From Chrysophaeum taylorii (Eukaryota > Sar > Pelagophyceae > Pelagomonadales > Pelagomonadaceae), in NCBI GenBank assembly GCA_029834535.1, contig JAQMWT010000105.1, positions 1-64,000 of the forward strand: DNA of 64,000 bases. The letters are read 5' to 3'. The notes beneath the pieces are model-generated. The model was not told where the DNA came from. It saw nothing but the letters and a program-made list of their open reading frames with translations, and did no database searches. The translations under genes and the position numbers were made by a program. Shown here piece after piece: positions 891 through 56,898 of this stretch (its first letter is position 1; each line of letters begins with the position of its first letter).

Positions 891-920
891 TCGTAACTTA
901 AACACTACTAATCGACAGAT

Positions 921-4130: not shown

Positions 4131-4257
4131 TGTCGACTCCTAAGATGGGGGTGTGTGTGGGGAGCATGAAGGATGTGGGTGGGTTTGTTTGTCTTTAAAT
4201 GTCGACTGCTAAGAGGGGTGTGGGGGTGTTGTGTGGGGAGCATGAAGGTGGGGTTTG
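4131..4257 (-). mobile_element. Two tandem LINE 3'-end stubs
   Basis: Two copies of the last 60 or so bases of the LINE (GTCTTTAAATGTCGACT... GGAGCATGAAGG on the plus strand) lie in tandem, separated by TTTGTTTG. Both are extremely short 5'-truncated insertions in the Helitron microsatellite. Confidence 0.75.
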
Positions 4258-5130: not shown

Positions 5131-5382
5131 TCGGATAAGAAAACGAGACTAACCCGCGCCGCAACGACGGGTCCTACAACGCGTGGGCTTTTTCCTTTTT
5201 TTGCGTGAGGGGGCGAAAGGATGCCGACTTCACTATGGGGACTAGTTCCATCGCGACGATCTCGCGGCGTGGCGGCACATACTGCTTGAGTACAAATGAA
5301 CATAGCTCAGCGATCCGTTGAGTATGTCTTAGTACAAACTGAAACATAGTTAACGGCTCGTACGAACTTTCTTATCCGACCC
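5131..5382. mobile_element. MITE copy 1, about 252 bp
   Basis: Almost identical to 39836-40090. The right end TTTCTTATCCGACCC is the inverted complement of the left end (GGGTCGGATAAGAAA in copy 2; here the first bases are altered to ACTCGGATAAGAAA). It interrupts the Helitron minisatellite phrase CTGGGGTTAGAGATTGGG, part of which is repeated on both sides. It codes for nothing; the small ORF it contains is a by-product. Confidence 0.8.
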
Positions 5383-5493
5383 TGGTTAGAGATTGGGACT
5401 AGGTGAACTTACTGACGAACGTAACGGGACCAGGTGAACTTACTGGGGTTAGAGATAGGTGAACTTACTGGCCTACACTTGTCGACATTTAAA

Positions 5494-5706
5494 GACAACT
5501 GGAATGGGGCGTTAGACCAGCGATAAGGGAATGACGTAGGGATACTGGATACGTGGTGCAGGGGTAAGTGTCATAGCTTCCTCACACAGGTGCTGGAAAA
5601 GAAAGAAAAGGAAAAAGGGGTAAGTGAGGAGTGAGGACCTCACACAGGTGCTGGAAAAGAAAGAAAAGAAAGAAAAGGATAAAGGGGTAAGTGAGACGCT
5701 CACAGA
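5494..5706 (-). repeat. 3' LTR region of Copia 1
   Basis: Bases from about 5495 (gacaactggaatggggcg) to 5586 align with the right LTR at 10845-10975, with indels. Beyond that a CCTCACACAGGTGCTGG/AAAGAAAG block is tandemly duplicated (5581-5636 and 5638-5700), so the inner LTR boundary is uncertain. Confidence 0.55.
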
Positions 5707-5764
5707 GGAGAAGCTTGAAGGAAGACGTCAGGAGAGGCAGTGTGGCAGAAAGAGACAGGAGATA

Positions 5765-17786: not shown

Positions 17787-17812
17787 ACCCCCCTGAGTCT
17801 TAGCAGTCGACA
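17787..17812 (+). mobile_element. LINE 3'-end stub
   Basis: CCCCCCTGAGTCTTAGCAGTCGACA, the last bases of the LINE before its tail, sits exactly between units R4 and R5. Confidence 0.6.
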
Positions 17813-18727
17813 TCTTAACTACTAATCGACAGATGTTTGTCTGTCTGTTTGTCTGTCTGTTTGTCCCTCGATTTAGGGTAAGGATCAGGTAGGCGCGAGA
17901 GCCAGACAGTGATCCTCCAAGCCGTCTACGGCGACCTCGCAGACTATTTCCACGACCCGCGCGGCTCAGCCAGCGCGCCATTCTCACGCCCCGTCGAAAC
18001 GATGTTGTCGATGCTGACAACGCGCGCATGACCGCGGCTTCCCGGAGACGAGGCGTCGGAGTTCTTTTCGGCTGACTAGGCTGGGTCGGAAGACGACGCC
18101 TCGCTCTTTACTGTAGAGTTTTCAACTCCTGACAACCAACGGCATGCTGACTTCGATCGCGAGCTTGATGTCTCGCAACCTCGACCCGTCGCACGGCCAC
18201 TGCAACGGTACCAGATACGTGATCGATCGTGTCGTTGTCACCGAGGCTCCTCCAACCTGTATCTTAAGGCCCGCCTACGCCAAACGATCAACAAGAGCCA
18301 GGGCCAGGCCCCGCGAGGCGGCGTCGTCCTCTACGTGGCTCTCATCTCGAGATATACAATCTGGGTCGGCGACCTCCCTACCCCGGCTGCTGCCGATAAG
18401 CCCCTCAGCCTACACTGTGCAGACTTGCTGGTGGGTGACTTACTGGGGTTGAGGTTGGGACTGGGTGACGTGACCAGGTGAAACTGGGACCAGGTGAACT
18501 TACTGGGTTTTAGAGTAAAGGGTTTTAAGATTTGGCGGCGCGTGCGGATCAAAGCAGCTTAGATTGGCGGAGGCGAGAGCGACGAGCTCAAAGGAGTTGG
18601 TGTGAGCTAGGTGAACTTACTGTCAATAATAATACTGACCAGGTGAACTTATATGAAACTTACTGGGACCAGGTGAACTTACTGGGGTTAGAGATTGGGA
18701 CTAGGTGAACTTACTGGCCTGCCCTTG
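17813..18727 (+). mobile_element. Helitron-derived unit R5
   Basis: Starts TCTTAACTACTAATCG at 17813 and ends GGCCTGCCCTTG at 18727. Contains an intact-looking microsatellite (17833-17868), the TCCCTCGATTTAGGG block, a helicase relic (17905-18420) with more deletions than the others, and the minisatellite tail. It is the shortest uninterrupted unit (915 bp). Confidence 0.85.
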
Positions 18728-20815: not shown

Positions 20816-20875
20816 TCCTAACTACTAATCGACAGATGTTTGTCTGTTTGTCTGTCTGTCTGTTTGTTGTTTGTC

Positions 20876-21510
20876 TTTAAACATGGGCTGCTGAAAGGGG
20901 TGTGTTTTGTTTGTTAAACATCGACTGCTAGAAGTGGGTGTGTGTGTGGTGTTGTAACTCATGTAAACTGAAAAGAGGTGTGTGTGGGGATGAAGGATGT
21001 GGAGTGGGTTTAGATTATGTATGGTGTGACAGAGCGGGGATAATACGCGGGACCTAGTCGGGGTCATCGCCGCGCGTGGGGCAGGCAGAAGAGGGACGGG
21101 CCCCGTGTGTGTGTTGTCTTTAAATGGAGGCTAAGAGGGGGTGTGTGGGGAGCATGAAGGATGTGGGTGGGTTTTTGTGGCGTATGAAGGATGCCTGACG
21201 GGCGGAGATAGTACGCGGGACCTAGTCGGGGTCACGCCGAGGCGTGGGGCAGGCGAAGAGAGGACGGGCCCCGCCCGTAGGTCGTACGCATGCTGCCGCC
21301 GGACGTATGTGCGACGAAGGGTGACGTCCTGCTGGGATCGGGCGGCCTGGGCGGGGTTCCCCGAGGCGGCGACATGGGTGAGGGCGGTGAGGGCACAGCG
21401 AGCCCGGCCTAATGCGTTGGCGATCCCCCACTCACGGTAGATGCGGCGAGTTTGGGCCGCCTTTGCCTCTGTGAAGTTGGCGCAGCCGCTTGTCACCCAG
21501 GTTCGTGTGT
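20876..21510 (-). mobile_element. Two tandem LINE fragments in R6
   Basis: Two minus-strand copies: a decayed one at about 20876-21105 and a cleaner one at 21115-21510 with GTCTTTAAATGGAGGCTAAG at its 3' side and GTCGTACGCATGCTGCCGCC inside. Both lie in the Helitron microsatellite, bounded by TGTGTGTGTTTGTCCCTCG. Confidence 0.8.
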
Positions 21511-40543: not shown

Positions 40544-40779
40544 ATGCCTCTTAAGGTATTGTCCTTTTAGAGCTGCACGTTTACAGGACTGAACCGGCGG
40601 GACGCACGAGAGAGATGGGGGGTAGGGGGATCAGAGTACGCGGTGGTCCCGGGTTAGGAGTCCTTGGCGAGAGGAACTCCGCGGACCCCCCCCAGGTTTA
40701 CTCGCAAACCGCCCTGAGAGAGGGTGGCTTCGCGAGGAAAGAGGATCCTCGGAAAGCGGGGAAGCCGCGGAGTAAGAGG

Positions 40780-41405
40780 AAGGTGCGGGGATGGGGCAGG
40801 TGCGGGGACGAGGAGAGTGCGAGGACGGGAGGTCGCGAGGAAGGGGCGCGGGGGCGGGGATATCGCGGGGAAGAGGAAGGTGCGAGGTTGGGGAAGATGC
40901 GGGGACGAGGAGAGTGCGAGGACGGGGAGATCGCGGGGAAGGGGAAGGTGCGAGGACAGGGATGTCGCGAGGAAGAGGAAGGTGCGGGGACCGGGGACAT
41001 CGCGGGAAGAGGAAGATGCGAGGTCGGGGAAGGTGCGGGGACGAGGAGGGTGCGAGGACGGGGAGAGCGCGAGGACGAGGAGAGTGCGGAGGAGGGGCGA
41101 GTCGCGGGGAAAGGGGAAGGTGCGAGGACGGGGAGATCGAGGGAAGAGGGAGTGCGGGGAGCAGGGAAGTCGCGGGGACGAGGGAGGTCGCGGGGACGGG
41201 GAAGGTGCGGGGAACGGGGAAGGTGCGGGGAGGGAAGGTGCGGGAACGGGGAAGGTGCGGGGAGGGAAGGTGCGGGACGGGAAGGTGGGGGGGCGGGGAA
41301 GGTGCGGGGAGCGAGGAAGGCGCGGGGAGAGAAAGTGCGGGGGCGGGGAAGGTGCGGGGACGGGGAAGGTGCGGGGCGCGGGGAAGGTGCGGGGACGGGG
41401 ATTTT
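40780..41405 (+). repeat. GC-rich minisatellite, right array
   Basis: More than 35 diverged copies of a 15-18-bp unit (GGGGAAGGTGCGGGGAC and GGAAGAGGAAGGTGCGAGG). Long open frames on both strands are artefacts of repeat length. Confidence 0.92.
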
Positions 41406-42112
41406 CCCCTTTCGACTCTCGGCCCGTGACCAACCAACCAGGTCGCTAAAAGTGGTGGTCACGTCAAGTCACGACGAAAAGGTCAAGAAGGTCAACACTT
41501 AAGAAGAATGGTCTAGGTTTAACGTCAAAAAAATGTTGCTGACACGACCTTGACGTCAAGGTGCAGCCCTGAAGGGTTTGGTAGAACAGGAGGACACTTA
41601 AAATCTTAACTACTAATCGACAGATGTTTGTCTGTCTGTCTGTCTTTAAATGTCGACTGCTAAGAGGGGGGGGTGTGTGTGGGGAGCATGAAGGATGTGG
41701 GTGGGTTTGTGGTAGGAGGGATGTGCCTGACGGGCGGGATATGTACGCGGGACCTAGTCGGGGTCATCGCCGAGGCGTGGGGCAGGCGAAGAGAGGACGG
41801 GCCCCGCCCGTAGGTCGTACGCATGCTGCCGCCGGACGTATGTGCGACGAAGGGTGACGTCCTGCTGGGATCGGGCGGCCTGGGTGGGTTCCCGAGGCGG
41901 CGACATGGGTGAGGGCGGTGAGGCACAGCGAGCCCGGCCTAATGCGTTGGCGATCCCCCATCGGTAGATGCGGCGAGTTTGGGCCTTTGCCTCTGTGAAG
42001 TTGGCGCAGCGCTTGTCACCCAGGTTCGCGCAGCGCGCTGCGCATGTTTGGGCGCAGCGTGGCACGCCGCGCTGGCCTCAAAGGCACGACGAGGCCGGCG
42101 ACGGTGCCGTAG

Positions 42113-43834
42113 CTACGTAGCCGCTGTTCGACAGGGCCCAAGAAGCCAGGCGGTGGTGCTGTACCCGGCTGGGGACGATGGCGTCGATGCCGCGGGCGTG
42201 AGCGAGGTATTCGGAGTGGACTTGCGCTGCGCGCCGATCGACAGGCGACGGGTGGAGGGATGGAGGGCGTGGGCGGTGTACAACGAACCCCAAGCGAGGT
42301 TTTGATATCGTAGAGTTGCTCCTGTTGTCGAGCGTGGTGAGGATGTCTGGGACGACTTGACGTCGGGCGAGATTGCCTCGGTACCGGCCGTAGAGGCGCG
42401 TGCGAATGGTAGGGGCGCGACGTCAGCAAAGATGCCGAAAACCTCGGACAGGGCTGGGATGCCGGCCTCTTTGACGCTGCCGTGGACGCAGTCGAGCTGG
42501 CCGTCATGCCAGGTGGTCCGCGCTCCTCCGCGGTTGACAAGGTTGGCCTGCGTGAGAAGCACCTTGCCGTGAGCGTCGAGAACGACGCCAGTGCCCAGAA
42601 TGCGAGTGCCCACGAGGCCCAAACAAGCTGGAGAGGGGTAGCCAAAGTACTGGGCACACATCTCAGCCCAGCAGCGGTTGGGGATTTGAAGGCCAGAGCT
42701 GGGCCACGAGCTGATGAACGTGGTCGAGAAGCGATCCCATGAGGACGCCGCTACTCGAAGTGCTTCGGTGATGGGAAGGGTGGCCGCAAGGCGCTGGAGT
42801 GCAGTGGCCCGAGCTGTCTCGCGCTGGGAGGTTAGAGCACGCTGGAGTTGGGGTATGAGCACGGGTGTCGAGATGGTGGGGTCGACGAGGACGCCCATGG
42901 AGACGAATTCGTGGGAGAGAGGACCGTCGACGAGATGAACGTTGGCGGGGTCGCCGGAACCAGCGCCGCCGTGGGAAGCCAGCGTGGTACGGAGATCAGC
43001 CCGAAGTCCGTCCCACGCAGTCTCGAGTGCCCGCCCCAGGCGGCAACCGGATGCGAGGAGGTGGTGCCAACGGTGCAACTCGTTACCTTTGCGAAAAGAA
43101 GTGGCACCCAGGACCGAGGCGAGGCGGGGGAGGTAGCCAGGGACCTCCAAGGCACCCGTAGGATCGCGAAGGTCGACGAGGTGTGGGAGGGCCTGGGCCG
43201 CCGTGCCAACAAAGGCGGCGGGGCTGAGGTCGGCGCAGGAGCGAATGCCGCCACCCCCACTTCGAGCAGGAAGACGGGGGCGTTGGAGGACGATGCCGGT
43301 GGAGTCAAAAACCTGACGCGGATCTGCGCCAAGTGCTGTGGCGACGAAGCTGAGGACGGCAACGTCGAAGCGGCGGAGCGCGCTCAAGGCATTGGTGGGG
43401 TAGCAGTGTTGCGCGATGTAGTCCATGCGCGGGGCGATGCAGTAGCGGCCCAACGAGTACATGCAGTGGGGGGAGACGTTCTGGAGCTTGGTGCGAATAC
43501 GGCTCATGTAGCTCATCTGAGCGTCAGCCTCGCGTTGCAAGGTAGCTTCGACATAGGCATCTCCGGCGTGTCCGGGGGGGGCGATGGGCACACCGTAGAT
43601 TACAAGGCCGTCGGCGACAACGGGGATACCAGCAAGAGTACGCGTGCCGTCAGGCGCAACTTGGACGTGGTCGTGAACATCGGGGTGATCAAGAAAGCCC
43701 GTGCCAAGTGCCGGACAGAACGCTACGCACTTGTCGAGGCGGAGCTCCTCGCCGCTAGCTTGGATGTCGCGGGCGTACTGCAGGAGGGCGTCGACAACCT
43801 CACGAGGGGAACCAGAGATGACGCCGTCGTCCAT
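42113..43834 (-). CDS. LINE RT motif C to C-terminal domain
   Basis: Starts at the catalytic motif, FGMDDGVISGSP, an unusual form of the FADD box. Continues through REVVDALLQYARDIQASGEE, LRLDKCVAFCP, YIAQHCYPTNALSALRRFDV and a thumb-like region to NRCWAEMCAQYFGYPSPACL and WHDGQLDCVHGSVKEAGIPA. Close to the end, frames compete: VVPDILTTLDNR in one and LYDIKT in another (42301-42355). Together they form PD-x(n)-DIK, a PD-(D/E)xK-like nuclease core. Confidence 0.85.
   Translation of the reverse strand: MDDGVISGSPREVVDALLQYARDIQASGEELRLDKCVAFCPALGTGFLDHPDVHDHVQVAPDGTRTLAGIPVVADGLVIYGVPIAPPGHAGDAYVEATLQREADAQMSYMSRIRTKLQNVSPHCMYSLGRYCIAPRMDYIAQHCYPTNALSALRRFDVAVLSFVATALGADPRQVFDSTGIVLQRPRLPARSGGGGIRSCADLSPAAFVGTAAQALPHLVDLRDPTGALEVPGYLPRLASVLGATSFRKGNELHRWHHLLASGCRLGRALETAWDGLRADLRTTLASHGGAGSGDPANVHLVDGPLSHEFVSMGVLVDPTISTPVLIPQLQRALTSQRETARATALQRLAATLPITEALRVAASSWDRFSTTFISSWPSSGLQIPNRCWAEMCAQYFGYPSPACLGLVGTRILGTGVVLDAHGKVLLTQANLVNRGGARTTWHDGQLDCVHGSVKEAGIPALSEVFGIFADVAPLPFARASTAGTEAISPDVKSSQTSSPRSTTGATLRYQNLAWGSLYTAHALHPSTRRLSIGAQRKSTPNTSLTPAASTPSSPAGYSTTAWLLGPCRTAAT
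42298..42355 (-). other. PD...DIK nuclease-like motif of the LINE
   Basis: On the minus strand CCAGAC (Pro-Asp, 42345-42350) is followed 12 or so codons later by GATATCAAA (Asp-Ile-Lys, 42301-42309). One indel lies between them. Confidence 0.6.
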
Positions 43835-44265
43835 GCCAAATCGGGCGTAGCCGGCACATGAACGTAAGCGGTGTCAAGGGCCTGAGCGGCGTCATGCGTT
43901 GCCAGACAGTACGCCGGTGGATAGGTGGGGTCGCCTTGCTGGCCGCCTTCTTGAGAGTCGAAGGGGGCGCGATCGAGGCCGGTGGGGCCGTGGAGGGCCA
44001 CCCAGGATGCCGGCCGCAATTGCTTGAACATAAGGTGGCCAAAGGCACGCAGCTTAGCGTTGGCGTGGTTTGCGAGTTTGTCCACGACGGTCCGGCGCTT
44101 GAGCTCGTTGAAGGCGTTGCGTTTGTCCAGCTTGATGATGACCTGGTCGGGGTACTGCTCCGCGGGTGCGGACGCCAAAGACGAGGCGCGAGGGGCCGCC
44201 CTTGACCCCGACGGCAACGTTGATCGGGTACAGTGCCTCAGAGGCTCGGAGTGGAGGCTACGCAC
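43723..44265 (-). CDS. LINE reverse transcriptase palm, motifs A and B
   Basis: IIKLDKRNAFNELKRRTVVD carries motif A (Asp codon at about 44125-44127) and FDSQEGGQQGDPTYPPAYCL carries motif B (about 43927-43950). The frame then shifts, and motif C is in the next frame. Confidence 0.88.
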   Translation of the reverse strand: MRSLHSEPLRHCTRSTLPSGSRAAPRASSLASAPAEQYPDQVIIKLDKRNAFNELKRRTVVDKLANHANAKLRAFGHLMFKQLRPASWVALHGPTGLDRAPFDSQEGGQQGDPTYPPAYCLATHDAAQALDTAYVHVPATPDLAWTTASSLVPLVRLSTPSCSTPATSKLAARSSASTSA

Positions 44266-44370
44266 AAGGCACCGTCCAGTGGCACGGCGGCGGACGGTGC
44301 CAATGCCGATAGGTCGAACGTCAGGTGCTTGGTTAGTCAGCGGCGCGTCGTTTTACCAACGGAATGAGGG

Positions 44371-45126
44371 TTACCGTGGTGGTGATGAAGTAATACCAGT
44401 CAGGAAGAGCTCCGCGAACGAACAAGGTCTCAAGGTTGTCGATTTTGTCCATCGCCGAGCGTGCCTTGACGTTGCTCGGGAAGGGCTGGGCGAAAACGGA
44501 AGGAATTCATTGCGGCACTGGTCGGGGCCCACACCAGCCTTCGGCCGGAGCGTGCGGTAAGTTTCACGCAGGGCGACCGAGAGTGTGGCGAGCCCTTGCG
44601 GGTGGTTGGGGAAAGTGTGAAGGTCCTCCTTGCGAGCAGGATGTTTGGACACGAGTTGGCGCATGACGTCTGGGTGGCATGGGTCGGCGATGCCCAGGCT
44701 GGTGAGAATACGGCACGCCCGAGAGAGGTCGCCAGATTCAGCGAGTCGCAATGCACGAAGTGCGTCGTCATCGTCGGGGGCCGCCCGTGAGCGTACATGG
44801 GAGCGCACGCGAGTCACGTCGTGGAGGTAGCCGTCAATGAGGAGGTCGTAACGCCCTGCGGCGAAGGCTGTAAAGCGGTCAGTGAGCACGTCGGGCCGAC
44901 GGGCGCCGCCTCGTGGTGCTCGCCGAAGAAGTAGGCTGTGAAGGCTCATGTACCAAAGGAGGGCACGGTCACGAGCGTTATCGGAAGTGGCGTCTTCAAA
45001 CCATGAACACACCTCGGCCATTGCGCTCGCCCATGCCTCGCGGAATTGGGCGGGAATGGTGCGAATGCAAGAGCACGGCGATATAATGAGGTCTTTGATG
45101 GAGACCTCGTCGATCGCAGAGCGCAA
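44371..45126 (-). CDS. LINE segment between finger and RT palm
   Basis: Helical region (REAWASAMAEVCSWFEDATS; RALLWYMSLHSLLLRR) followed by ALRALRLAESGDLSRACRIL and LRPKAGVGPDQCRNEFLPF. The last phrase equals the RT entry motif (AxGPDxxRxEFL) common in microbial-eukaryote LINEs. A frameshift near 44485 separates it from the palm. Confidence 0.75.
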   Translation of the reverse strand: MRSAIDEVSIKDLIISPCSCIRTIPAQFREAWASAMAEVCSWFEDATSDNARDRALLWYMSLHSLLLRRAPRGGARRPDVLTDRFTAFAAGRYDLLIDGYLHDVTRVRSHVRSRAAPDDDDALRALRLAESGDLSRACRILTSLGIADPCHPDVMRQLVSKHPARKEDLHTFPNHPQGLATLSVALRETYRTLRPKAGVGPDQCRNEFLPFSPSPSRATSRHARRWTKSTTLRPCSFAELFLTGITSSPPR

Positions 45127-45136
45127 ATCGCTCAGG

Positions 45137-46186
45137 TCACGTGGACGGCGTGTCGGGAGGAGGGGCTGGCCGGATGACGTAGGGTGGGCGGGGGCAACAG
45201 ACGGTGGCGCGAATGTGACCGAGGCCCAATGGGAGAAATGCCAGGAGACGCGCTCGTGGGGGCTGCAGCCGTGACAGGGGTGTTGCGGTGGCTGGTGGCA
45301 GGGGGGGCGCGGCGGTTGCCGGCGGCAGCGGCGGGGGTGGAGGAGGTGCTAGTAGTGGGGGGTGGTCCGGCCAGCGGCAGGGGTGTGGCGGCTGGCTGTG
45401 GCATTCGCAGTGCGGTTGCCAGACGCAGTGGTGCGGCGGTTGCCAGCGGGAGGGGTGGTAGGGGTGTTGCGAGTGCCAGTGGATCGCGTGCGGGAGCCAA
45501 TGTGGGAGAGGCGGGCGGCACGGGCAGCTTGAGCAGCGTGGGCGGCAGCGCGATGGGCGAGGTAAGCGTCGGCGCTGGCAGCAGCGGCGGCGGCCCGTCC
45601 CGTGTCGAGTTGGAGTGCCGCAGCAGCGGCAGCAGCAGCGTGCATAGCGGCGAGATGGCGTTCCGCAGCAGCAGCGGCTCGAGCGGCAAGGGCGGCGTCG
45701 CGCATACGCGCTCGAATGCGATATCGGGCGGTAGTGGCGGCAAGGGCTGCAGCAAGTGGGAAAATGCGGTGAGGTGCGGCAGCGCGGACCTGGGGGGGGA
45801 GAGTGCACAGACACCCAGCTTTGATGAGGGCGGACCATGCGTATAGGACTGCGGCAGTTGGGGCACGGCGGAAGGCGCGCGCGGTTGGTGGGCGCCACGT
45901 CAGGGTCGCCTTGGTCGCCGGCGAGGTTGCTTAGCGCCCACTGACCAACGCAGGCGGGGTGCAGGACCACGCGACAGCAGCGGACTTGGCAACGGGTAAA
46001 GCAAGGGCTGGAGCATATAGGACAAGCGCGGTCCCGGAGGTAGCTGACATAGCGGCCGGCCGTGTGGCGCAGGAAGCGGCGGATTATTGCCAGGGATCGA
46101 CGAGCACGTAATCGCTTCCAGGCTCGAAATTGGTGCCGAAGAAGGGCCGCTGCGTAGTGGAGTGGCGGGCCAGGAGTCTGGCGCAA
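45137..46186 (-). CDS. LINE N-terminal region with RING/RING-CH-like finger
   Basis: Residues about 50-115 read RDRACPICSSPCFTRC, CCRVVLHPACVGQWALSNLA and PPCPNCRSPIRM (46024-45853). The spacing C-x2-C...C-C-x4-H-x2-C...C-x2-C fits a RING or RING-CH finger. Upstream is a basic helix (RHQFRAWKRLRARRSLAIIR). After the finger the true frame shifts to an alanine-rich helical stretch (ARMRDAALAARAAAAAERHL, about 45708). N-terminal fingers of RLE LINEs usually bind target DNA; a RING-like one could instead act in ubiquitin transfer. Function is inferred. Confidence 0.65.
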   Translation of the reverse strand: MRQTPGPPLHYAAALLRHQFRAWKRLRARRSLAIIRRFLRHTAGRYVSYLRDRACPICSSPCFTRCQVRCCRVVLHPACVGQWALSNLAGDQGDPDVAPTNRARLPPCPNCRSPIRMVRPHQSWVSVHSPPPGPRCRTSPHFPTCCSPCRHYRPISHSSAYARRRPCRSSRCCCGTPSRRYARCCCRCCGTPTRHGTGRRRCCQRRRLPRPSRCRPRCSSCPCRPPLPHWLPHAIHWHSQHPYHPSRWQPPHHCVWQPHCECHSQPPHPCRWPDHPPLLAPPPPPPLPPATAAPPLPPATATPLSRLQPPRARLLAFLPLGLGHIRATVCCPRPPYVIRPAPPPDTPST

Positions 46187-46809
46187 GGCCGCGACGCGGT
46201 TTTGCCGGGCAGCACGTGCTTGAGCGTGTTGAGCGCGGGTGCGTATGACGCGGGCGACATCCGGATGTGCAGAGTTGGTGCATGCGCGTGAAGGCGAGGC
46301 AGATAGCGGCGGCTGAGAGGTAGGTGACGGCCCGAGGGTGGCGAGGAATTTGGCGTGGGTGTGGCAGACGCCGGGAAATTGGTGGCAGTGGGTGTGACGG
46401 ACTGTGTGGGCGTAGCAGGTGAGCGACGGGCACGGAGGTGCTGCCGAGCGCGAACAAAGCGCTGAAGACGGAGCGCGGCGGTGTGACGTGGCTGACCAGG
46501 AGCGCGGCGCAGGGTCGCAACGAGGTTCTGTCGAGCAGCACGTGCAAGAGTATGATGAGCGCGACTTCGGGCAGCACGAGCGGTGGACGAGAAAGTAGAG
46601 TGCGGGGCAGGGGTCGGAGGCAGAGCCGGTTGTGGTGGCGGAGGGGGAGTTGGCGAGATCTGGGTCGCGGAGGCGGGCGGCGAGTGAGCCGGTGTGGCCG
46701 CAGCAGACGATGGAGGGCTGTCGGTAGCGAGAGCTCCCTGGGGTTGAGTCCGTGCGCGAAAGCGGCGCTGGAGACGAGTCGCAGCGTGGTGGCGAGACTC
46801 ACCAGGATC

Positions 46810-46832
46810 GTGTCTGTCTGTCTGTCTGTCTG
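46810..46832 (+). repeat. TCTG/TTTG microsatellite beyond the LINE 5' end
   Basis: GTCTGTCTGTCTGTCTGTTT directly follows the LINE 5' end and leads to the Helitron TCCTCGATTTAGGG block. With 41626-41644 it forms the split target. Confidence 0.85.
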
Positions 46833-46834
46833 TT

Positions 46835-47490
46835 TGCTCCTCGATTTAGGGTAAGGATCAGGTAGGCGCGAGAGTAAGGATCAGGTAGGCGCGAGAGCCA
46901 GACATTGATCCTCCAAGCCGTCTACGGCGACCTCGCAGACTATTTCCACGACCCGCGGCGGCTCTTTCAGCGCGCCATTCTCACGCCCCGTCGAAACGAT
47001 GTTGTCGATGCTGACAACGCGCGCATGACCGCGGCCTTTTTTTCCCGGAGACGAGGCGTCGGAGTTCTTTTCGGCTGACTAGGCTGGGTCGGAAGACGAC
47101 GCCTCGCTCTTTACAGTAGAGTTTTCAACTCCCTGACAACCAACGGTATGCTGACTTTGATCGCGAGCTTAATGTCTTCGCAACCTCGACCCGTCGCACG
47201 GCCACTGCAACGGTACCAGATACATGATCGATCGTGTCGTTGTCACCGAGGCTCCTCCAACCTGTATCGCTTAAGGCCCGCCTACGCCAAACGATCAACA
47301 AGAGCCAGGGCCAGACGCCCCGCGAGGTCGGCGTCCTCTTTCCCAAGCCCGTCTTCTGCCACGTCCAGCTCTACGTGGCTCTCTGTCGATCGGCTTCCCC
47401 GAGGATATACTCATCTGGGTCGACGACTCCACCCTACCCCACACGTGCTGCGCAATACCGATAAGCCCCCTCACGGCGTCTACACGCGCA
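46835..47490 (+). pseudogene. Helitron helicase relic of R7
   Basis: Representative relic. The TCCTCGATTTAGGGTAAGG block (partly duplicated) joins directly to the sequence for LQAVYGDLADYFHDPRRLFQ, i.e. to the position equal to about 53914 in the autonomous copy, so 5.7 kb is deleted. Further shared deletions remove the segment from LAHWVDGEKK to ELRRRQF. NKSQGQTPREVGVLFPKPVF is still readable. A TGACTAGG stop near 47079 is common to most relics. Confidence 0.85.
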
Positions 47491-47955: not shown

Positions 47956-48082
47956 ATGAAACTTACTGGGACCAGGTGAACTTACTGGGGTTAGAGATTG
48001 GGACTAGGTGAACTTACTGGCCTGCACTTGTCCTAACTACTAATCGACAGATGTTTGTCTGTTTGTCTGTTTGTTTGTCTGT

Positions 48083-48120
48083 CTTTAAATGTCGACTGCT
48101 AAGAGGGGGGGGTGTGTGTG
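48083..48120 (-). mobile_element. LINE 3'-end stub in the autonomous Helitron
   Basis: TCTTTAAATGTCGACTGCTAAG and the G/T-rich sequence after it match the LINE 3' end; only some 35 bases were inserted between microsatellite halves. Confidence 0.75.
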
Positions 48121-48220
48121 GTTGTCTGTCCCTCGATTTAGGGTAAGGATCAAAAGGATTAGGAGACGACGGTTGCTTTTTTCTGTACCCCAAGACGACG
48201 GTTGCTTTTTTCTGTACCCA

Positions 48221-51200
48221 ATGTGCTTTGGGTGGGACGCGCACGCGCACGTCGCCGCGAAGAGAGAGGAGCTTCACGAGCTTCGAGCGCGGTATCGCCA
48301 TGCTTTCGGGGTCATGTGCGACGACGCGACATCGAGCGACATTGACAGGCTCGCGCCCGGGCGACTCGCAGCGTGCTTCGCGATGGAGGCGCAGAAGGAG
48401 GACGAGTGGGACCCTGTACGTCGGGCGCTGACTCGGAAGATCAAGATACGGGAACTCAAGGTGGAGGCGGTGCGAGCGCGGATGGCTGAGCGGAAACGGG
48501 TTGGGGTCAAGAAAAAGCAAGGGCGTGACCTCAACGCTCTTCAGCGAGAGATCGACGCCTTCGAGCAGGAGGTCGCAGGCCTCAAGGCCCGGCTGGACGA
48601 CCACCTGGGCGCCGCCGCCGAGCAGCTGCATCAACGCACCGTTTGGTTCGAGATCGAAGGCCTCGAACGCACCGTCGACCAGCTTGAAGCCGCCTACGAC
48701 ATGCGCCAGATGCTCCTCCGTTGCTCTCGACGCCGAGTGTTGGATGTCTCTGGCGCGTTCGCCCATTGGGTCGAGGTGAACACTCGCTCACGTGGACCTT
48801 GGCCGATCTCTCCGTTGCGGGGCAAGGAGCTCGACCGATCGCTCGCCGCCGACGCCGCCGCTCGCGCCATGCGCGTGCTCAACATGTTGCCGATCATCGA
48901 GGAGGATGACGACGACGACATCGTGGTCCCCGGGCCGCCCGACGACGTATCGATCTGCGAGCGCGGCCAGCACTGTGACGGCGGCTGGGAAGAGCAGAAA
49001 AGTGATGGCGACGGGGTCGGCACTCAAACTGCGCCGTCACCCGCAGCTTCCGCCGACCGTATCCGGCCACGAGAGCTCGCTCTAGCCATGCGGATCGGGT
49101 TCAACGACCTCGGCGCCATCCAGCGCGCCGCCACAATGTTGGTTGCCCGCGTCCCTCAACGACTGAATGTCGACGTAGCGTTCTACAAGCTCATAGAGCA
49201 CGTCCAAAGCCTACCCGTGCGACCACCCAAGCTTCTCGGTGGAGCTCGAACGAGACCTGCGGGCCGAGGCGGTGGTCGAGGTGCGCGAGGCGGTGGTCGT
49301 GGTCGTGTAGCACATGGCGGAGGAAGCGTTGGCGCGCAGGACCGACGCGCCTTGGCGCCCTTGGACAACAACGTGCGACCGCCGCCATTCGACTACTCGA
49401 CTCAGCAGCTGCCGCGGGGCGTCAGGATCCCATCCAGGCAACCAGTGGCACACCGGCCCCAGAGTGACGCGCTGAGGATGAAGCTGTGGGCCGAGCGCGA
49501 TTTACTGTGCTTGAGCTGCGGAGGAGTCGGCTGTGCCGTCTGCGGACCATGCTCCCCAGGCGCCTGCTGCGGCAGAAGGCTATGCTCGCATCACCCTTCT
49601 TACGAAAGCCTCAAGAGGTGGAATCGATTGCATTCCCAAGGTGGTGACCAACGAGATGCTCGACTCGGCGCCGACGCCGCGCGCCACCGGACAGCGCGGG
49701 CGCTTGAGGACGAGGACGAGCGAGATGCTCGAGTCGGCGCCCAGGCTGCGCGCCACCGGACAGCGCGGGCGCTTGAGGACGAGGACGAGCGAGATGCTCG
49801 AGTCGGCGCCGACGCCGCGCGCCACCGGACAGCGCGGGCGCTTGAGGACGAGGACGAGCGAGATGCTCGAGTCGGCGCCGACGCCGCGCGCCACCGGACA
49901 GCGCGGGCGCTTGAGGACGAGGACGAGCGAGATGCTCGAGTCGGCGCCCAGGCTGCGCGCCAGCGGACAGCGCGGGCGCTTGAGGACGAGGACGAGCGAG
50001 ATGCTCGAGTCGGCGCCGACGCCGCGCGCCACCGGACAGCGCGGGCACGAGAAAACGTCGACCAAAGAAGTGCTCGAATCGGTGCCCAGGCTGCGCGCCA
50101 GCGGTCAGACCGACAAGGTCAAATCAACCGTCGACGCCGAAGCAGTGTCAGTGTCGCCGGCCAGCACACGATCGACGAGTTTGACGAGGGCAAAGTCGAG
50201 AAACACGACTGCGGATACATGTCCAAGCTCTGTTCGCACTGCAACGCGCTGTACTTTGAAGGGGAGGCCACTCAAGCCGGCGTGTTCACGAAGTGCTGCG
50301 CCAATGGCACTGTGGTGCTGCCGCGGATTCCGGAGCCGCCTAATGAGATCCAGGCCCTCTTCAAAGGCAACACGGAGCAGTCCCCCGACTTCCTCGCCAA
50401 CATCCGGTCGTACAACTGCGCGCTGAACTTCGCGTCGCTCAAATGCACGGACGAGCGCCTTATGGCCCGCGGGCAGGCGAACCACCGCTGCCCGATTTCC
50501 GCATTGCGCATCTCCGGCCAAGTCAACGTCTTTCTCGGTCCAGTCCGCGCCGCCGACGGAGCAGATCCAGTCTGCGCCCAGGTCTACTTGCTTGACCCCC
50601 AATCACAGTTGAATCATCGTGCCCGTAATGCGCGGCTCGACCGACAGGTGCTCGGCGTGCTTCAGGATTACATTCTGCGACGCAACCGGTTTTGCCGTGA
50701 GTTCGTCCAGCTCGACCGGGATTTTCGCATCAACCGTGCGAATGTCGCCGACGCGCGGATCGTGTTCCATGCGGAGGAACGTGCCGGCAATGTCCACGAA
50801 CGCCGCGCGAACGCGCCGACGGCGGAAGAGGTCGCCTTCGTATACCACGGCGATGCGACCGCAGTCGCCAAGTCGAGGGACATTGTCGTCAAGCACCGGC
50901 CGGACCATGGCGGTTCCTTGGTCACCATCAGCAATTTGCATCGATGGCGCGACCCTCTCCACTACGTGCTCCTGTACCTCGACGGCGCGACGGAAGTCTT
51001 CCACCTGGGGATTCGACGCGTCAATCCAGAGAACGGCATTTCGACCGACAAGAAGGTGACCGAGATAGACTTCTATGCGTACAGGATCCAAGTGCGTGCT
51101 GACGACAGCGCTGGCGGAGGAGAGAACGACATGGATGTCGATCAACGCAACCATCCAGCTCGCGAGTTCTCGGCCTTGCACCTCAGCAGGCTCCTCTTTC

Positions 51201-53695
51201 AGGAGTACCTCCTCGACGCGCACACGAAGGTGGAGGCCTCGCGCCTCGACTTTCTTCGTAACAACCAGCACCAACTCCGCGCCGATCTCTACCACGGACT
51301 CGAAGATGCGGTGGCGAGCGGCAACGAAAGAGATGCCGGCAAGTTTTTCCTTCTGCCGTCGTCGTTCAAGGGTGGGCCGCGCGAAATGCGGGCGGCGTAC
51401 CAGGATTCCATGGCCATAGTGCGCGAATACGGCAAGCCGGACTTCTTCATCACGTTCACGACCAACCCCAAGTGGGATGAGATCCAGCGCGAGCTCGAAC
51501 CGAACCAGAGCGCGAAGGACCGACCGGATTTGGTCTGTCGGGTGTTCCACGTCAAGCTCAAGGAGCTCCTCTCGGACATCTTCGACAAGGGCGTTCTCGG
51601 CAAGGCCGTGGCGTACAGCTACTCGATCGAGTATCAGAAACGAGGGCTCCCGCACGCGCACATTTTGCTGATTCTGGATCGCGACTCCAAGATACCGCCC
51701 GAGGACATAGACAAGTACGTGTGCACCGAGATCCCGGACCCACGCACGCAGCCTGAACTCCACCGCATCGTCGTCAGCAACCTCATCCACAACCCGTGCT
51801 GTGAGCACGGCGACCGTCAAGCGTCGTGCATTAAGGACGGCATCTGCTCGAAGAGCTTCCCCAAGGATTTTAAGTCGCAGACCACGGTTCCAGAGGACGG
51901 GTACGCGGTCTATCGGCGCCGCAGCCCCGACCAGGGCGGCCGCACTGTTACGAAGCAAATCCACGGCCGCGACGTCCTGTTGGATAACCGTTGGGTTGTC
52001 CCATACAACCCTTACCTCGCGAAGAAGTACGAGGCACATATAAACGTCGAGTTTTGTGCCTCGGTCAAGTCGGTCAAGTACATCCACAAGTACGTCTACA
52101 AGGGCCACGACGAGGCGACCGTGTCCATCGAGACCTCCCAAGCGCGGGACGAGATCGACGAGTTCGTCAACGGTCGGTACGTTTGCGCGACCGAGGCTGC
52201 CTGGCGGCTCTACGGCTTCGAGACCCACGGTCATTATCCGCCGGTCGAGCGCCTCGCCGTGCACCTGGAAAATGGGCAGCGCATCGTTTGGGAGGATTCG
52301 GACGACCCTGTCGTAAGAGCGGAGCGGGCGCGAATCGCGGCCGCGGTGCCTCCGGAAACGACGTTGACGGCGTGGTTCAACATTAACCGCCACTACAAGA
52401 ATCTCTGGCTCCACTCAGGGGGGGACCAGGATGTTTTCGACGAATCCCTCGCTCGCGGCGAACGGGATTCACGGAAATATTTTTACCACGAGATGCCGAA
52501 AAATTTTACCTTCGAGAAGACGGGGACGACAGCGACGTGGAAGCCTCGGAAGCAGGGCGACACCCGCCGCCGCGAGCGCCTCGGCTTGGACCTCGACGAC
52601 TTCTCCTGCGACAAGGTCGCACGCGTCTACTCGGTGTCGCCCAAGGACCGCGAGTGCTTCTACTTGCGGATCCTGCTCTCACACGTCCAGGGCGCGACCT
52701 CATTCGAAGATCTGCGCGAGTTCGGAGGCATCGTCTATCCAACGTATGTTGCCGCCTGCCGCGCGCGAGGCCTCACACAAGACGACGACGAGTGGGACGA
52801 GTGCCTTCGCGAGGCCGCCAACTTTCTTATTGGGGCGTCGTTGCGACGGCTCTTCGCGACCATCCTCTCGACCTGCGAGCCCTCGGATCCGTTCGGGCTT
52901 TGGACGACGCACACAGAGGCGCTCTGCGATGACATTCTCCACAGGCATCGAACGAGCCACCAGAACCCGAACCTCCAGCTCAACGCCGAAATTGAGAACG
53001 AGGCGCTGCTCGATGTTGAGTCGATGCTCGACGCCGTCGGCTGCACGCTTCCGAACGAATTTCCCGAGCGACGACAGGTGGCGAACGTCACTTGCCGACA
53101 GGTCGTCGACGAGCTCATCTTCAGCGACTCGACCGAGAAAAGGCAGGCGCTGTGCAGCCAAGTCATCGCGAACGTCGCCAGCATGCGGCAAAGGAACCCA
53201 GACCAATTTCGGCTCTATGAGGAGATCTGTGGGGACATCGACAGTGGTACCGGCCGAGTGTACTTCGTCGACGCGCCCGCCGGCACTGGAAAGACCTTCT
53301 TGAGCACGACGCTGCTCGCGTACGTCCGCAAGAGCCAAAACGTCGCGCTCGCGACTGCGGGCTCCGGGATCGCCGCTACGCTTCTTCCCGGCGGACGGAC
53401 ATCGCACTCGCGTTACAAAATTCCACTCGACCCCGACGAGTTGTCGTTCTGCAACATTACGCAGCGAGTAAACGATCAGACGCGGGCCGTCATTGCCGAG
53501 GCCAACTTGCTGCTTTGGGACGAGGTTCCGATGACGAACAAGCTCTGTTTCGAGGCCCTCGACCGCACGCTCCAGCGCGTGTTCGAGTGCGCCCAGCCGT
53601 TCGGTGGCAAGGTCGTTGTCTTTTGGGCGACTTTCGCCAATGTCTGCCCGTCCTCAAGCACGCCCGCCAGTTCCAGATCGTGGACGCAACGCTGA
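48221..53695 (+). CDS. Helitron Rep/helicase protein, main frame
   Basis: I take ATG 48221 (MCFGWDAHAHV) because upstream codons lie in LINE stub and repeat. Order: charged coiled-coil region; RGG-like GRGGGRGARGGGRGR (49260-49320); cysteine-rich CLSCGGVGCAVCGPC (49511-49560); seven 23-residue repeats; Helitron zinc region CGYMSKLCSHCNALYFEGEA...CC (50209-50295); GQVNVFLGPVRA; Rep motifs FITFTTNPKW (about 51445), GLPHAHILL with the HUH pair at 51653-51661, and KYIHKYVYKG with the catalytic tyrosines (52079-52099); helicase Walker A APAGTGKT (53273-53296) and Walker B LLLWDEVPM. The correct frame is lost near 53625, and the last 23 codons before the stop at 53695 are out of frame. It nicks and ligates single strands in rolling-circle transposition. 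Confidence 0.93.
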   Translation: MCFGWDAHAHVAAKREELHELRARYRHAFGVMCDDATSSDIDRLAPGRLAACFAMEAQKEDEWDPVRRALTRKIKIRELKVEAVRARMAERKRVGVKKKQGRDLNALQREIDAFEQEVAGLKARLDDHLGAAAEQLHQRTVWFEIEGLERTVDQLEAAYDMRQMLLRCSRRRVLDVSGAFAHWVEVNTRSRGPWPISPLRGKELDRSLAADAAARAMRVLNMLPIIEEDDDDDIVVPGPPDDVSICERGQHCDGGWEEQKSDGDGVGTQTAPSPAASADRIRPRELALAMRIGFNDLGAIQRAATMLVARVPQRLNVDVAFYKLIEHVQSLPVRPPKLLGGARTRPAGRGGGRGARGGGRGRVAHGGGSVGAQDRRALAPLDNNVRPPPFDYSTQQLPRGVRIPSRQPVAHRPQSDALRMKLWAERDLLCLSCGGVGCAVCGPCSPGACCGRRLCSHHPSYESLKRWNRLHSQGGDQRDARLGADAARHRTARALEDEDERDARVGAQAARHRTARALEDEDERDARVGADAARHRTARALEDEDERDARVGADAARHRTARALEDEDERDARVGAQAARQRTARALEDEDERDARVGADAARHRTARARENVDQRSARIGAQAARQRSDRQGQINRRRRSSVSVAGQHTIDEFDEGKVEKHDCGYMSKLCSHCNALYFEGEATQAGVFTKCCANGTVVLPRIPEPPNEIQALFKGNTEQSPDFLANIRSYNCALNFASLKCTDERLMARGQANHRCPISALRISGQVNVFLGPVRAADGADPVCAQVYLLDPQSQLNHRARNARLDRQVLGVLQDYILRRNRFCREFVQLDRDFRINRANVADARIVFHAEERAGNVHERRANAPTAEEVAFVYHGDATAVAKSRDIVVKHRPDHGGSLVTISNLHRWRDPLHYVLLYLDGATEVFHLGIRRVNPENGISTDKKVTEIDFYAYRIQVRADDSAGGGENDMDVDQRNHPAREFSALHLSRLLFQEYLLDAHTKVEASRLDFLRNNQHQLRADLYHGLEDAVASGNERDAGKFFLLPSSFKGGPREMRAAYQDSMAIVREYGKPDFFITFTTNPKWDEIQRELEPNQSAKDRPDLVCRVFHVKLKELLSDIFDKGVLGKAVAYSYSIEYQKRGLPHAHILLILDRDSKIPPEDIDKYVCTEIPDPRTQPELHRIVVSNLIHNPCCEHGDRQASCIKDGICSKSFPKDFKSQTTVPEDGYAVYRRRSPDQGGRTVTKQIHGRDVLLDNRWVVPYNPYLAKKYEAHINVEFCASVKSVKYIHKYVYKGHDEATVSIETSQARDEIDEFVNGRYVCATEAAWRLYGFETHGHYPPVERLAVHLENGQRIVWEDSDDPVVRAERARIAAAVPPETTLTAWFNINRHYKNLWLHSGGDQDVFDESLARGERDSRKYFYHEMPKNFTFEKTGTTATWKPRKQGDTRRRERLGLDLDDFSCDKVARVYSVSPKDRECFYLRILLSHVQGATSFEDLREFGGIVYPTYVAACRARGLTQDDDEWDECLREAANFLIGASLRRLFATILSTCEPSDPFGLWTTHTEALCDDILHRHRTSHQNPNLQLNAEIENEALLDVESMLDAVGCTLPNEFPERRQVANVTCRQVVDELIFSDSTEKRQALCSQVIANVASMRQRNPDQFRLYEEICGDIDSGTGRVYFVDAPAGTGKTFLSTTLLAYVRKSQNVALATAGSGIAATLLPGGRTSHSRYKIPLDPDELSFCNITQRVNDQTRAVIAEANLLLWDEVPMTNKLCFEALDRTLQRVFECAQPFGGKVVVFWATFANVCPSSSTPASSRSWTQR
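49652..50134 (+). repeat. 69-bp coding tandem repeat (7 units)
   Basis: Units start at 49652, 49721, 49790, 49859, 49928, 49997 and 50066; each encodes RDARVGADAARHRTARALED plus EDE, with ADAARH alternating with AQAARQ. The last unit is degenerate. Similar arginine/glutamate repeats precede the zinc region in Helitrons of other lineages. Confidence 0.95.
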
Positions 53696-54630
53696 AGAAG
53701 TCTCGACGGATTTGGCCCCACGTCCGCATCCGCTACCTTACGAAGAACATGCGCGTCGAGCTTTCGGGTGGCCTCGATGCCAGGCAGCTCGCTGAATTTT
53801 CCGACTTTCTCCTCAAGGTCGGAAACGGTTTGGTTCCTACTGTCCCGAGCTTGGGACGGGACTGGATCAAGATCGACGATTACGTTCGCTGCGTCGAGCG
53901 CGAGCCAGAGTTGATCCAAGCCGTTTACGGCGACCTCGCAGACAATTTCCAAGACCCGCGGTGGCTTTTCCAGCGCGCCATTCTTACGCCCCGAAACGAT
54001 GTTGTCGATTCTGTCAACGCGCGCATGACCGCGGCCTTTCCCGGAGACGAGGCGACGGAGTTCTTTTCGGCCGACGAGGTTGGGACGGACGACGACCCCT
54101 CGCTCTTTCCAGTCGAGTTTCTCAACTCCCTGACAATCAACGGCATGCCGCCGCACAAGCTCGCGCTCAAAGTCGGCATGCCGGTGATGTTGCTTCGCAA
54201 TCTCGACCCGTCGCACGGCCACTGCAACGGCACCCGATACATCATCGAGCGCATCGTCTCGCCGAGGCTTCTCCAACTCGCCCATTGGGTGGACGGCGAG
54301 AAAAAAACCCTCATGGTCCCGCGCATCACCCTCACCACGAAGCAGGGCGACCTCCCCTTCGAGCTGCGCCGACGCCAGTTTCCGTTAAGGCCGGCGTTCG
54401 CCATGACGATCAACAAGAGCCAGGGCCAGACGCTTCGCAAGGTCGGCGTCCTCTTGCCCAAGCCCGTCTTCGGCCACGGCCAGCTCTACGTGGCTCTCAG
54501 CCGAGTTGGCAAGCCCGAGGACATCGTCTTCTGGGTCGACGACTCCACCCTACCCAACGTAGCGCAATACCGACAACGCCACCCTGGCGTCTACACGCGC
54601 AACGTGGTTTACCACGAGGTCCTCCGGTAG
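53604..54630 (+). CDS. Helitron Pif1-family helicase, C-terminal frame
   Basis: After a one-base shift at about 53620-53628 (in GTCTTTTGGGCGAC) the helicase continues with LGDFRQCLPVLKHARQFQIV, IWPHVRIRYLTKNMRVELSG, LIQAVYGDLADNFQDPRWLF, AILTPRNDVVDSVNARMTAA, VGMPVMLLRNLDPSHGHCNG, AFAMTINKSQGQTLRKVGV and GQLYVALSRVGKPEDIVFWV. These are Pif1 motifs III to VI. It ends YHEVLR at 54630. The helicase unwinds DNA during transposition. The part from 53914 on is what all relic units derive from. Confidence 0.93.
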
Positions 54631-54811: not shown

Positions 54812-55860
54812 TCCTAACTACTAATCGACAGATGTTTGTTTGTTTGTTTGTCTGTTTGTTTGTTTGTCCCTCGATTTAGGGTAAGGATCAGGTTAGGCGC
54901 GAGAGTAAGGATCAGGTAGGCAGAGCCAGACAGTGATCCTCCAAGCCGTCTACGGCGACCTCGCAGACTATTTCCACGACCCGCGGCGGCTCTTTCAGCG
55001 CGCCATTCTCACGCCCCGTCGAAACGATGTTGTCGATGCTGACAACGCGCGCATGACCGCGGCCTTTTTTTTCCCGGAGACGAGGCGTCGGAGTTCTTTT
55101 CGGCCGACTAGGTTGGGTCGGAAGACGACGCCTCGCTCTTTACAGTAGAGTTTTCAACTCCCTGACAACCAACGGCATGCTGACTTTGATCGCGAGCTTA
55201 AAGTCTTCGCAACCTCGACCCGTCGCACGGCCACTGCAACGGTACCAGATACATGATCGATCGTGTCGTTGTCACCGAGGCTCCTCCAACCTGTATCCCT
55301 TAAGGCCCGCCGACGCCAAACGATCAACAAGAGCCAGGGCCAGACGCCCCGCGAGGTCGGCGTCCTCTTGCCCAAGCCCGTCTTCTGTCACGTCCAGCTC
55401 TACGTGGCTCTCTGTCGATCGGCAACCCCGAGGATATGCTCTTCTGAGTCGACGACTCCACCCTACCCAGCACGTGCTGCGCAATACCGATAAGCCCCCT
55501 CCCGGCGTCTACACGCGCACTGTAGGTGAACTTACTGGGACCAGGTGAACTTACTGGGGTTTGAGATTGGGACTAGGTGAATATAGTGACCAGGTGAACT
55601 TACTGGGACCAGGTGAACTTACTGGGGTTTTAGAGTAAACTCAAAGGTTAGCGGCGTGTGCGGATCAAAGCAGCTTAGATTGGCGGAGGCGACAGCGACG
55701 AGCTCGAAGGAGTGGTGTGAGCACGAGTGGGTTTACGCCGAACTTACTGGGGTTAGAAATTTGGACTAGGTGAACTTACTGGCCAGGTGAACTTACTGGG
55801 ACCAGGTGAACTTACTGGGGTTAGAGATTGGGACTAGGTGAACTTACTGGCCTGCACTTG
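54812..55860 (+). mobile_element. Helitron-derived unit R8
   Basis: TCCTAACTACTAATCG to GGCCTGCACTTG, 1049 bp, uninterrupted and the best model of the relic family: 5' end, microsatellite, TCCCTCGATTTAGGG block (with duplicated GTAAGGATCAGG), helicase relic (54935-55525), minisatellite. Confidence 0.93.
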
Positions 55861-56898
55861 TGTTTGTCTGTTTGTCTGTTTGTTTGTTTGTCCCTCGATT
55901 TAGGGTAAGGATCAGGTTAGGCGCGAGAGTAAGGATCAGGTAGGCAGAGCCAGACAGTGATCCTCCAAGCCGTCTACGGCGACCTCGCAGACTATTTCCA
56001 CGACCCGCGGCGGCTCTTTCAGCGCGCCATTCTCACGCCCCGTCGAAACGATGTTGTCGATGCTGACAACGCGCGCATGACCGCGGCCTTTTTTTCCCGG
56101 AGACGAGGCGTCGGAGTTCTTTTCGGCTGACTAGGCTGGGTCGGAAGACGACGCCTCGCTCTTTACAGTAGAGTTTTCAACTCCCTGACAACCAACGGCA
56201 TGCTGACTTTGATCGCGAGCTTAAAGTCTTCGCAACCTCGACCCGTCGCACGGCCACTGCAACGGTACCAGATACATGATCGATCGTGTCGTTGTCACCG
56301 AGGCTCCTCCAACCTGTATCCCTTAAGGCCCGCCGACGCCAAACGATCAACAAGAGCCAGGGCCAGACGCCCCGCGAGGTCGGCGTCCTCTTGCCCAAGC
56401 CCGTCTTCTGTCACGTCCAGCTCTACGTGGCTCTCTGTCGATCGGCAACCCCGAGGATATGCTCTTCTGAGTCGACGACTCCACCCTACCCAGCACGTGC
56501 TGCGCAATACCGATAAGCCCCCTCCCGGCGTCTACACGCGCACTATAGGTTAACTTACTGGGACCAGGCGAACTTACTGGGGTTTGGGATTGGGACTAGG
56601 TGAACTTAGTGACCAGGTGAACTTACTGGGACCAAGTGAACTTACTGGGGTTTTTAGAGTGAACGCAAAGGCTAGCGGCGTGTACGGATCAAAGCGGCTT
56701 AGATTGGCGGAGGTGAGAGCGACGAGCTCGAAGGAGAGTGGGGTGAGTGGGTGTGAGCACGAGTGGGCTTACAGTGTAAGTTACACCGAACTTACTGGGG
56801 TTAGAGATTGGGACTAGGTGAACTTACTGGGACCACGTGAACTTACTAGGGTTTGAGATTGGGACTAGGTGAACTTACTTACTGGCCTTGTGGACTTG
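55861..56898 (+). mobile_element. Helitron-derived unit R9
   Basis: Follows R8 with its first 20 or so bases missing: it starts in the microsatellite TGTTTGTCTG. The helicase relic (55958-56550) is almost identical to that of R8, including stops. It ends CTTGTGGACTTG at 56898, 25 bases before the start codon of the next gene. Confidence 0.9.

Follow-up and report, generated by a model that had tools for sequence, protein, structure and literature searches.

The question raised by a 64,000-nucleotide stretch of the Chrysophaeum taylorii genome (contig JAQMWT010000105.1 of assembly GCA_029834535.1, positions 1 to 64,000; hereafter the window) is whether one transposon family can carry and spread the landing site of another. 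On its minus strand, at 41645–46809, lies a long interspersed nuclear element (LINE) whose 3' end is embedded in a short tandem tract just inside the 5' end of a Helitron. We consider it probable (roughly 80%) that this copy belongs to a young LINE family of the restriction-like endonuclease (RLE) type that uses target-primed reverse transcription to insert at GACA, prefers tandem tracts and is supplied with them by Helitrons.

The junction can be read directly in the window sequence. Beyond the LINE 3' end at 41644 (...AGCAGTCGACATTTAAAG) comes a (GACA)n/AACA tract and, after it, CATCTGTCGATTAGTAGTTAAGA, which is the reverse complement of the Helitron 5' end beginning with TCTTAAC at 41604 and reads TCTTAACTACTAATCGACAGATG on the opposite strand. 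The last G of the LINE 3' terminus (41644/41645) is common to the LINE and its target. The features of the interrupted site are the following.

41645–46809, minus strand: LINE copy, 5'-truncated and frame-broken, with the 3' terminus ...GTCGACATTTAAAG at 41644/41645
41625–41643, minus strand: 3'-side (GACA)n/AACA tract, separating the LINE 3' end from the Helitron terminus
46811–46834, minus strand: 5'-side (GACA)n tract, the remainder of the Helitron tract that the LINE interrupts
41604–41626, plus strand: Helitron 5' terminus TCTTAACTACTAATCGACAGATG, its TC placed from copies with differing flanks
46836–46900, plus strand: Helitron sequence resuming inside the tract (CCTCGATTTAGGGTAAGGATCAGG...), in the same order as in empty copies

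The possibility that the window copy is a complete element was rejected: nucleotides 1726–6909 of a 6,909-nt LINE reference align to it at 97% identity, and compared with a 7,024-nt copy elsewhere in the genome it begins at about nt 1868, about 1.87 kb of the 5' end being missing. Its reading frame is broken in several places (all frames are read as they stand in the copies).

The host element has the hallmarks of a Helitron. A coding member of the family in the window (48089–54630) carries the same (GACA/AACA)n tract at its 5' end and encodes, within 48089–53692, both the Helitron_like_N (E 1.2e-58) and PIF1 (E 2.1e-43) domains of a RepHel protein. The 5' TC falls, by eye, at the point where the flanks of the copies diverge, as expected of a Helitron 5' end. 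LINE-free copies read CCTAAATCGAGG-(GACA/AACA)n-CATCTGTCGATTAGTAG; 15 stretches picked as likely LINE-free provided 16 Helitron ends, two of which (L113 and L118) carried LINE ends after all, and the clean tract measured 28–44 bp in the 12 LINE-free ends measurable by pattern. By eye, tandem Helitron junctions suggest a 3' end in CACTTG, and several arrayed Helitron ends adjoin sequence with this reading. Beside the Helitron 5' end at the window LINE, 40555–41502 contains stop-free frames of more than 200 aa in all six frames.

Both ends are abundant in the genome (70.8 Mb in 697 contigs). An 18-mer of the LINE end has 3,602 matches with up to two mismatches (1 for the reversed control), and a 17-mer of the Helitron end has 2,937 with up to one mismatch (0 for the reversed control). 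Four RACA units stand before an exact Helitron end in 2,277 cases, compared with 3,025 tract ends overall that have four units and then a pyrimidine (169 for the reversed control), so that about three quarters of such tracts belong to Helitrons.

The placement of LINE ends was assessed in a non-random sample, the first 100 exact LINE ends listed, whose loci hold 116 LINE ends when up to two mismatches are allowed. In 29 of them the LINE runs straight into a Helitron end; 58 have another LINE stretch in the same orientation within the next 80 bp (at least in L039 and L077 a Helitron end intervenes before it), two have a stretch in the opposite orientation, and the other 27 lead to other sequence, several of these being Helitron ends after a small interruption. 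Grouped into 61 insertion clusters and tested over a reach of 110 bp downstream and 70 bp upstream, 41 lie at a Helitron 5' region: 35 have a Helitron end downstream (13 of these also show the inner Helitron part on the upstream side, and six are cut by the locus edge) and six have the inner part upstream only. The observation of the earlier note, made from the window sequence alone, is in large part upheld and reaches beyond the window.

Such a concentration is far from what the supply of GACA sites would give. Helitron tracts hold about 16,000 of about 614,000 GACA sites (2.7%; the roughly 597,000 non-tract sites being extrapolated from one window), the share of clusters to be expected from this supply alone. 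Chance placement was likewise rejected, the tracts making up about 0.17% of the genome (2,937 × ~40 bp). Viewed from the Helitron side, at least 30 of the first 100 Helitron ends listed carry a LINE, an exact LINE 3' end lying no more than 100 bp upstream of them on the same strand; the figure is a minimum, as exact ends alone were counted.

The same association could have arisen if a few LINE landings had been followed by transposition or tandem amplification of the Helitron together with its passenger. Helitron ends do recur every ~1.0–1.1 kb on several contigs, and one LINE start (6843) is found in 11 of the 95 LINE pieces with an internal 5' end (median length 67 bp). On the other hand, 18 distinct 5' starts were counted among the 20 LINE pieces lying no more than 60 bp from the inner Helitron part, only nine of the 42 Helitron 5' ends in the LINE-selected sample adjoin another Helitron end while most of the other flanks were seen once, and many Helitrons have no LINE. 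Differing truncation points and differing Helitron flanks argue against multiplication of a few LINE-bearing Helitrons, and we rejected it as the main cause, holding this origin to be very improbable; the LINE insertions in Helitron tracts are apparently independent. Together with the Helitron share of the tracts, these distinct starts uphold the idea that one transposon spreads the target of another. Tandem Helitron arrays were observed on contigs C1, C5, C7 and C11, with 5' ends at the spacing given above and all on one strand.

The near-full LINE copies are 95–99.8% identical to one another, mostly 97–99%. The 7,024-nt copy (C4:47433–54456), with an ATG in the context CCGCCACCATGG 23 nt from its start, lies in a Helitron tract with a LINE 3' fragment on either side of it (L048, L049), and its reading frame is also interrupted.

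Insertions outside Helitrons point to what is recognized. Among 13 near-full copies extended upstream, five have no Helitron on either side, and four of these five are flanked by duplications (GACATAGAAAG in L014, GACATT in L019, GACAGAA in L023 and AACACAAAA in L016). In nine of 14 further non-Helitron rows, a flank of at least 6 bp is repeated by eye, in two with one mismatch (L044, L051, L062, L075, L078, L080, L081, the first of L083, and L084; L044 has imperfect inner Helitron sequence upstream); these duplications include GACAGATTCG, GACAACTGGAA, GACAGTGCCAAA, GACAATG, GACAAACAAAAA and GACGTATGG, and the flanks of L074 share at least GACA. Eight of the 13 duplications start with GACA and one with AACA; in two (L062, L084) the opening GAC has a G after it on at least one side. 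The first G of the duplication coincides with the last G of the LINE and can be assigned to either; in L080 one extra GACA unit was added at insertion. Since most duplications start with GACA, the LINE 3' end appears to join at GACA, a Helitron tract being many GACAs in a row: GACA is likely the target and the tandem tract a hotspot. Target duplications combined with 5' truncation are typical of target-primed reverse transcription.

Strict specificity for Helitrons was rejected in view of the duplication-bearing insertions elsewhere. A related alternative is that the LINE protein recognizes the Helitron 5' end, or a transposition intermediate, rather than the repeat. With Helitrons holding most of the tracts, telling the two apart is difficult; we nevertheless consider it distinctly improbable, given that insertions at a single GACA outside Helitrons bear duplications and that LINE ends occur near another LINE piece no less often than at a Helitron end.

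Several observations weigh against a LINE family homing to GACA tracts supplied by Helitrons. By the cluster test, 16 of the 61 clusters have no Helitron on either side and four more are undecided (the locus edge cuts them short and no Helitron end follows downstream), so that the Helitron tract proposed as the landing site proved to be the main site and not the exclusive one. In the remaining 16 of the 35 clusters that have their Helitron end downstream, the inner Helitron part is absent from the 70 bp upstream, and the near-full copies L012, L022 and L028 show a Helitron on one side only. No clear duplication was seen at the near-full copy L021, nor at L068, L082, L088 and the second insertion of L083, and two of the 13 duplications start with neither RACA nor GAC (CACCC... 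in L051, AACTTC... in L083). An opposite-strand LINE end lies within 120 bp of two of the first 100 Helitron ends listed. Finally, the LINE-end sample is confined to contigs C2–C12.

Beyond the junctions, target duplications, chains, differing truncation points and Helitron origin of most tracts, which are seen in the sample itself, the course of insertion may be pictured as follows. The LINE endonuclease would nick the strand reading TGTC, and the new 3' end would pair with the GACA-bearing tail of the LINE RNA (...TTTAAAGACA), where reverse transcription would begin. A single GACA would suffice, with tandem (GACA/AACA)n strongly preferred, about three quarters of the tracts in this genome lying in one Helitron family, ~20 bp in from its 5' terminus. 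As Helitrons hold most of the tandem tracts, the Helitron would spread the LINE landing site. Each insertion keeps a GACA tract on its 3' side, where later LINEs can land, which would account for the head-to-tail chains; these would grow by repeated insertion of mostly very short, 5'-truncated pieces. Tandem duplication may also have produced some chains, for example the one with repeated 6583 starts in L060.

The tract itself may have come from the LINE, an ancestral Helitron having captured a GACA tail and LINEs homing to their own tail wherever it lies. The LINE tails consist of the same repeat, a GACA unit was gained at insertion in L080, and half of the LINE ends (58/116) have another LINE stretch close behind. 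We regard this origin as unlikely, the 12 LINE-free Helitron ends having no LINE letters between the Helitron parts, an observation that speaks of present copies only.

Landing could also work in both directions, with the Helitron multiplying (GACA)n, the LINE regenerating and sometimes extending tracts, and Helitrons inserting in turn into LINE tails or tracts. Helitron 5' flanks contain CTGCTAAGAGG in L044, L056 and L112, CATTTAAAGACAAAC in L060 and a RACA tract in L039, L072 and L116, and the window Helitron at 17813 abuts a LINE 3' end (17802–17819). A LINE tail or GACA tract was found by eye at the 5' flank of two of the 16 Helitron ends of L110–L124, the set picked as likely LINE-free. 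Such reciprocity is a tentative, somewhat doubtful proposal; if true, both families would build shared nests that spare genes.

Within the window, seven Helitron 5' ends were found with up to three mismatches, of which five bear LINE ends (low coordinates 905, 4070, 20822, 41610 and 48037) and two are empty (17819 and 54818). An eighth tract (55858, within 55840–55892) stands directly behind CCTGCACTTG, and the 20 outermost bp of the Helitron 5' end are absent there. Apart from the locus described above, the features are:

905–962, minus strand: Helitron 5' end, its tract occupied by a LINE 3' end
4070–4210, minus strand: Helitron 5' end with a chain of LINE 3' ends
17813–17887, plus strand: empty tract at a Helitron 5' end whose TC terminus abuts a plus-strand LINE 3' end remnant (17802)
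20816–20876, minus strand: Helitron 5' end with LINE 3' pieces
48031–48121, minus strand: Helitron 5' end occupied by a short LINE 3' fragment, the coding Helitron following directly downstream
48089–54630, plus strand: coding Helitron with Helitron_like_N and PIF1 helicase domains, in two frames
54812–54890, plus strand: Helitron 5' end with an empty tract

The earlier note had placed every minus-strand LINE copy that it saw in a Helitron tract. This agrees with the five occupied ends and fails for the LINE end near 1582, which lies within a head-to-tail LINE chain and not directly at a Helitron end; the claim covered minus-strand copies alone, and the plus-strand LINE ends at 5477 and 19528 are outside Helitron tracts. 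Another repeat, containing GGCGTTA and AGCGATAAG, hosts LINE ends at window position 5477 and in L062, L078 and L082, those at 5477 and in L078 occupying the same position in the repeat.

The protein features of the window LINE, including its reverse transcriptase (RT), are the following.

45854–46024, minus strand: C4HC3 (RING-CH/PHD-like) Cys/His cluster CPIC...CPNC, no profile match
43723–44560, minus strand: RT fingers/palm (LDKRNAFN, GGQQGDP), split by frameshifts
42113–43873, minus strand: open frame with RT motif C (FGMDDG) and the following part
42301–42350, minus strand: putative endonuclease motif PD...YDIK, its halves in different frames (PD near 42350, DIK near 42301)

The motifs originally noted in this copy, FGMDDG and the cysteine cluster among them, are present in a truncated and frame-broken element with PD and DIK out of frame with each other. 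For the protein analysis we relied on a 1,214-residue part of an open copy (L023) containing the RT motifs LDKRNAFN, GGQQGDP and GMDDG. Against this single protein the Pfam RVT_1 profile reached only E 0.029, under the cut-off, and single-protein PDB searches gave nothing at E ≤ 1. Two relatives were identified, P0001 (35% identity over 92%) and P0002 (25% over 54%), and a second protein search returned the same two; nothing was found in an NCBIfam search, and no useful relatives among viral contigs. A profile of the three proteins searched against PDB matched R2 chains over the RT (9nl3, E 3.3e-6; 9dou, E 4.3e-6), that is, an RT of the type without long terminal repeats (non-LTR). The same search also gave unrelated chains, which weakens the assignment (FAP297, E 1.3e-4; ribosomal L19, E 0.0086) and which are taken as compositional matches. 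Judged by sequence, the RT is related to that of R2-type LINEs. Patterns of a CCHC knuckle or a C2H2 finger had no match in the L023 open reading frame, and for this reason the LINE was not filed in the R2 clade; nor did the junctions read show the insertion into 28S rRNA genes that characterizes R2.

At the C-terminus the open copy reads PD-x12-DIK and P0001 reads PD-x13-ETK, which fits a PD-(D/E)xK nuclease and suggests, from one weak motif, a candidate RLE. Two points count against this assignment: the PD-(D/E)xK pattern also matches once within the RT of both L023 and P0001, and no Pfam or PDB match to an endonuclease domain was obtained, a PDB search with the C-terminal alignment returning solely ribosomal S9 (E 0.32). 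The RLE proposed for the window LINE is a candidate suggested by this motif.

The RING-like finger that the earlier note had singled out fared similarly. In the long open frame the cluster is found at residue 887, with the spacing C-x2-C-x7-C-x4-C-x4-H-x2-C-x28-C-x2-C that is typical of C4HC3 fingers such as RING-CH or PHD. A 100-residue piece with the cluster had no Pfam match, a longer piece (L101) matched PUB_1 only under the cut-off (E 0.0039), and the search for relatives of the cluster found none; P0001, the nearest relative of the LINE protein, which may be incomplete, has no cysteine in its first 393 residues. The structure prediction suggested for 45853–46024, a single-sequence model, was uninformative (mean pLDDT, predicted local distance difference test, of 45.7). 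The finger has 57 matching rows in the genome; 36 of them span 89 or more of the 100 residues with an identity of 91% or higher and are too young to show constraint, and the diverged ones (L105–L109) carry stops or frameshifts and are little informative.

In the course of this analysis a second abundant RT family was observed (L005–L008 and other matches at E ~1e-24), its RT match spanning 855 bp and its open frames reaching 1,134 aa, and a 58-kb contig (G000:C696) was seen to contain eight separate RT matches, perhaps group II introns of an organelle genome. Contigs C25 and C521 share several matches at nearly the same coordinates, perhaps as two haplotypes of one region, and would be useful for empty-site comparisons.

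With thousands of copies, the target choice of a LINE with an RLE motif can be read at base resolution, and single GACA can be compared with tandem GACA, in and out of Helitrons. Questions of transposon ecology, such as safe havens and nests, become testable by counting. A LINE with its target inside a DNA transposon is known from Xenopus, where Tx1L inserts into Tx1D; that LINE has an apurinic/apyrimidinic endonuclease (APE) and a piggyBac-like host, as opposed to the restriction-like endonuclease motif and the Helitron host here.

Among RLE LINEs, R2-type elements (architecture as described in PMC6895275) resemble the present family in the RT profile, the C-terminal PD-(D/E)xK-like motif and 5' truncation. 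They differ in their target, 28S rDNA as opposed to GACA repeats, and the present LINE has a long P/A/R-rich N-terminus with the C4HC3 cluster and, by pattern, no CCHC knuckle or C2H2 finger. According to Kojima and Jurka (PMC4640811), most RLE LINEs are target-specific, and LINE targets include transposons and microsatellites; PMC8869645 also lists microsatellites and other transposable elements. That a LINE should target another transposon is therefore not as unusual as first supposed. The Togen families, specific for (TG)n, and some HERO families (PMC4640811) provide a close likeness as microsatellite-inserting RLE LINEs, with the difference that most of the microsatellites here are carried by Helitrons. 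On the Helitron side, DINE-1 and the (GTCY)n-hitchhiking elements (PMC4067079) are rolling-circle-type elements with a short repeat tract, and the part of that article consulted describes Helitron-like elements with microsatellites and no LINE using the tract. In the titles and abstract openings of the papers that searches on Helitrons with LINEs, microsatellites, hitchhiking or non-LTR RLE elements brought up, no LINE targeting a Helitron tract was found. Overall, since LINEs aimed at microsatellites or transposons have been published, the present case is a variation on known targeting: its ingredients are known, the pairing of a LINE with a Helitron tract looks new, and it looks like one transposon family supplies most of the landing sites of another.

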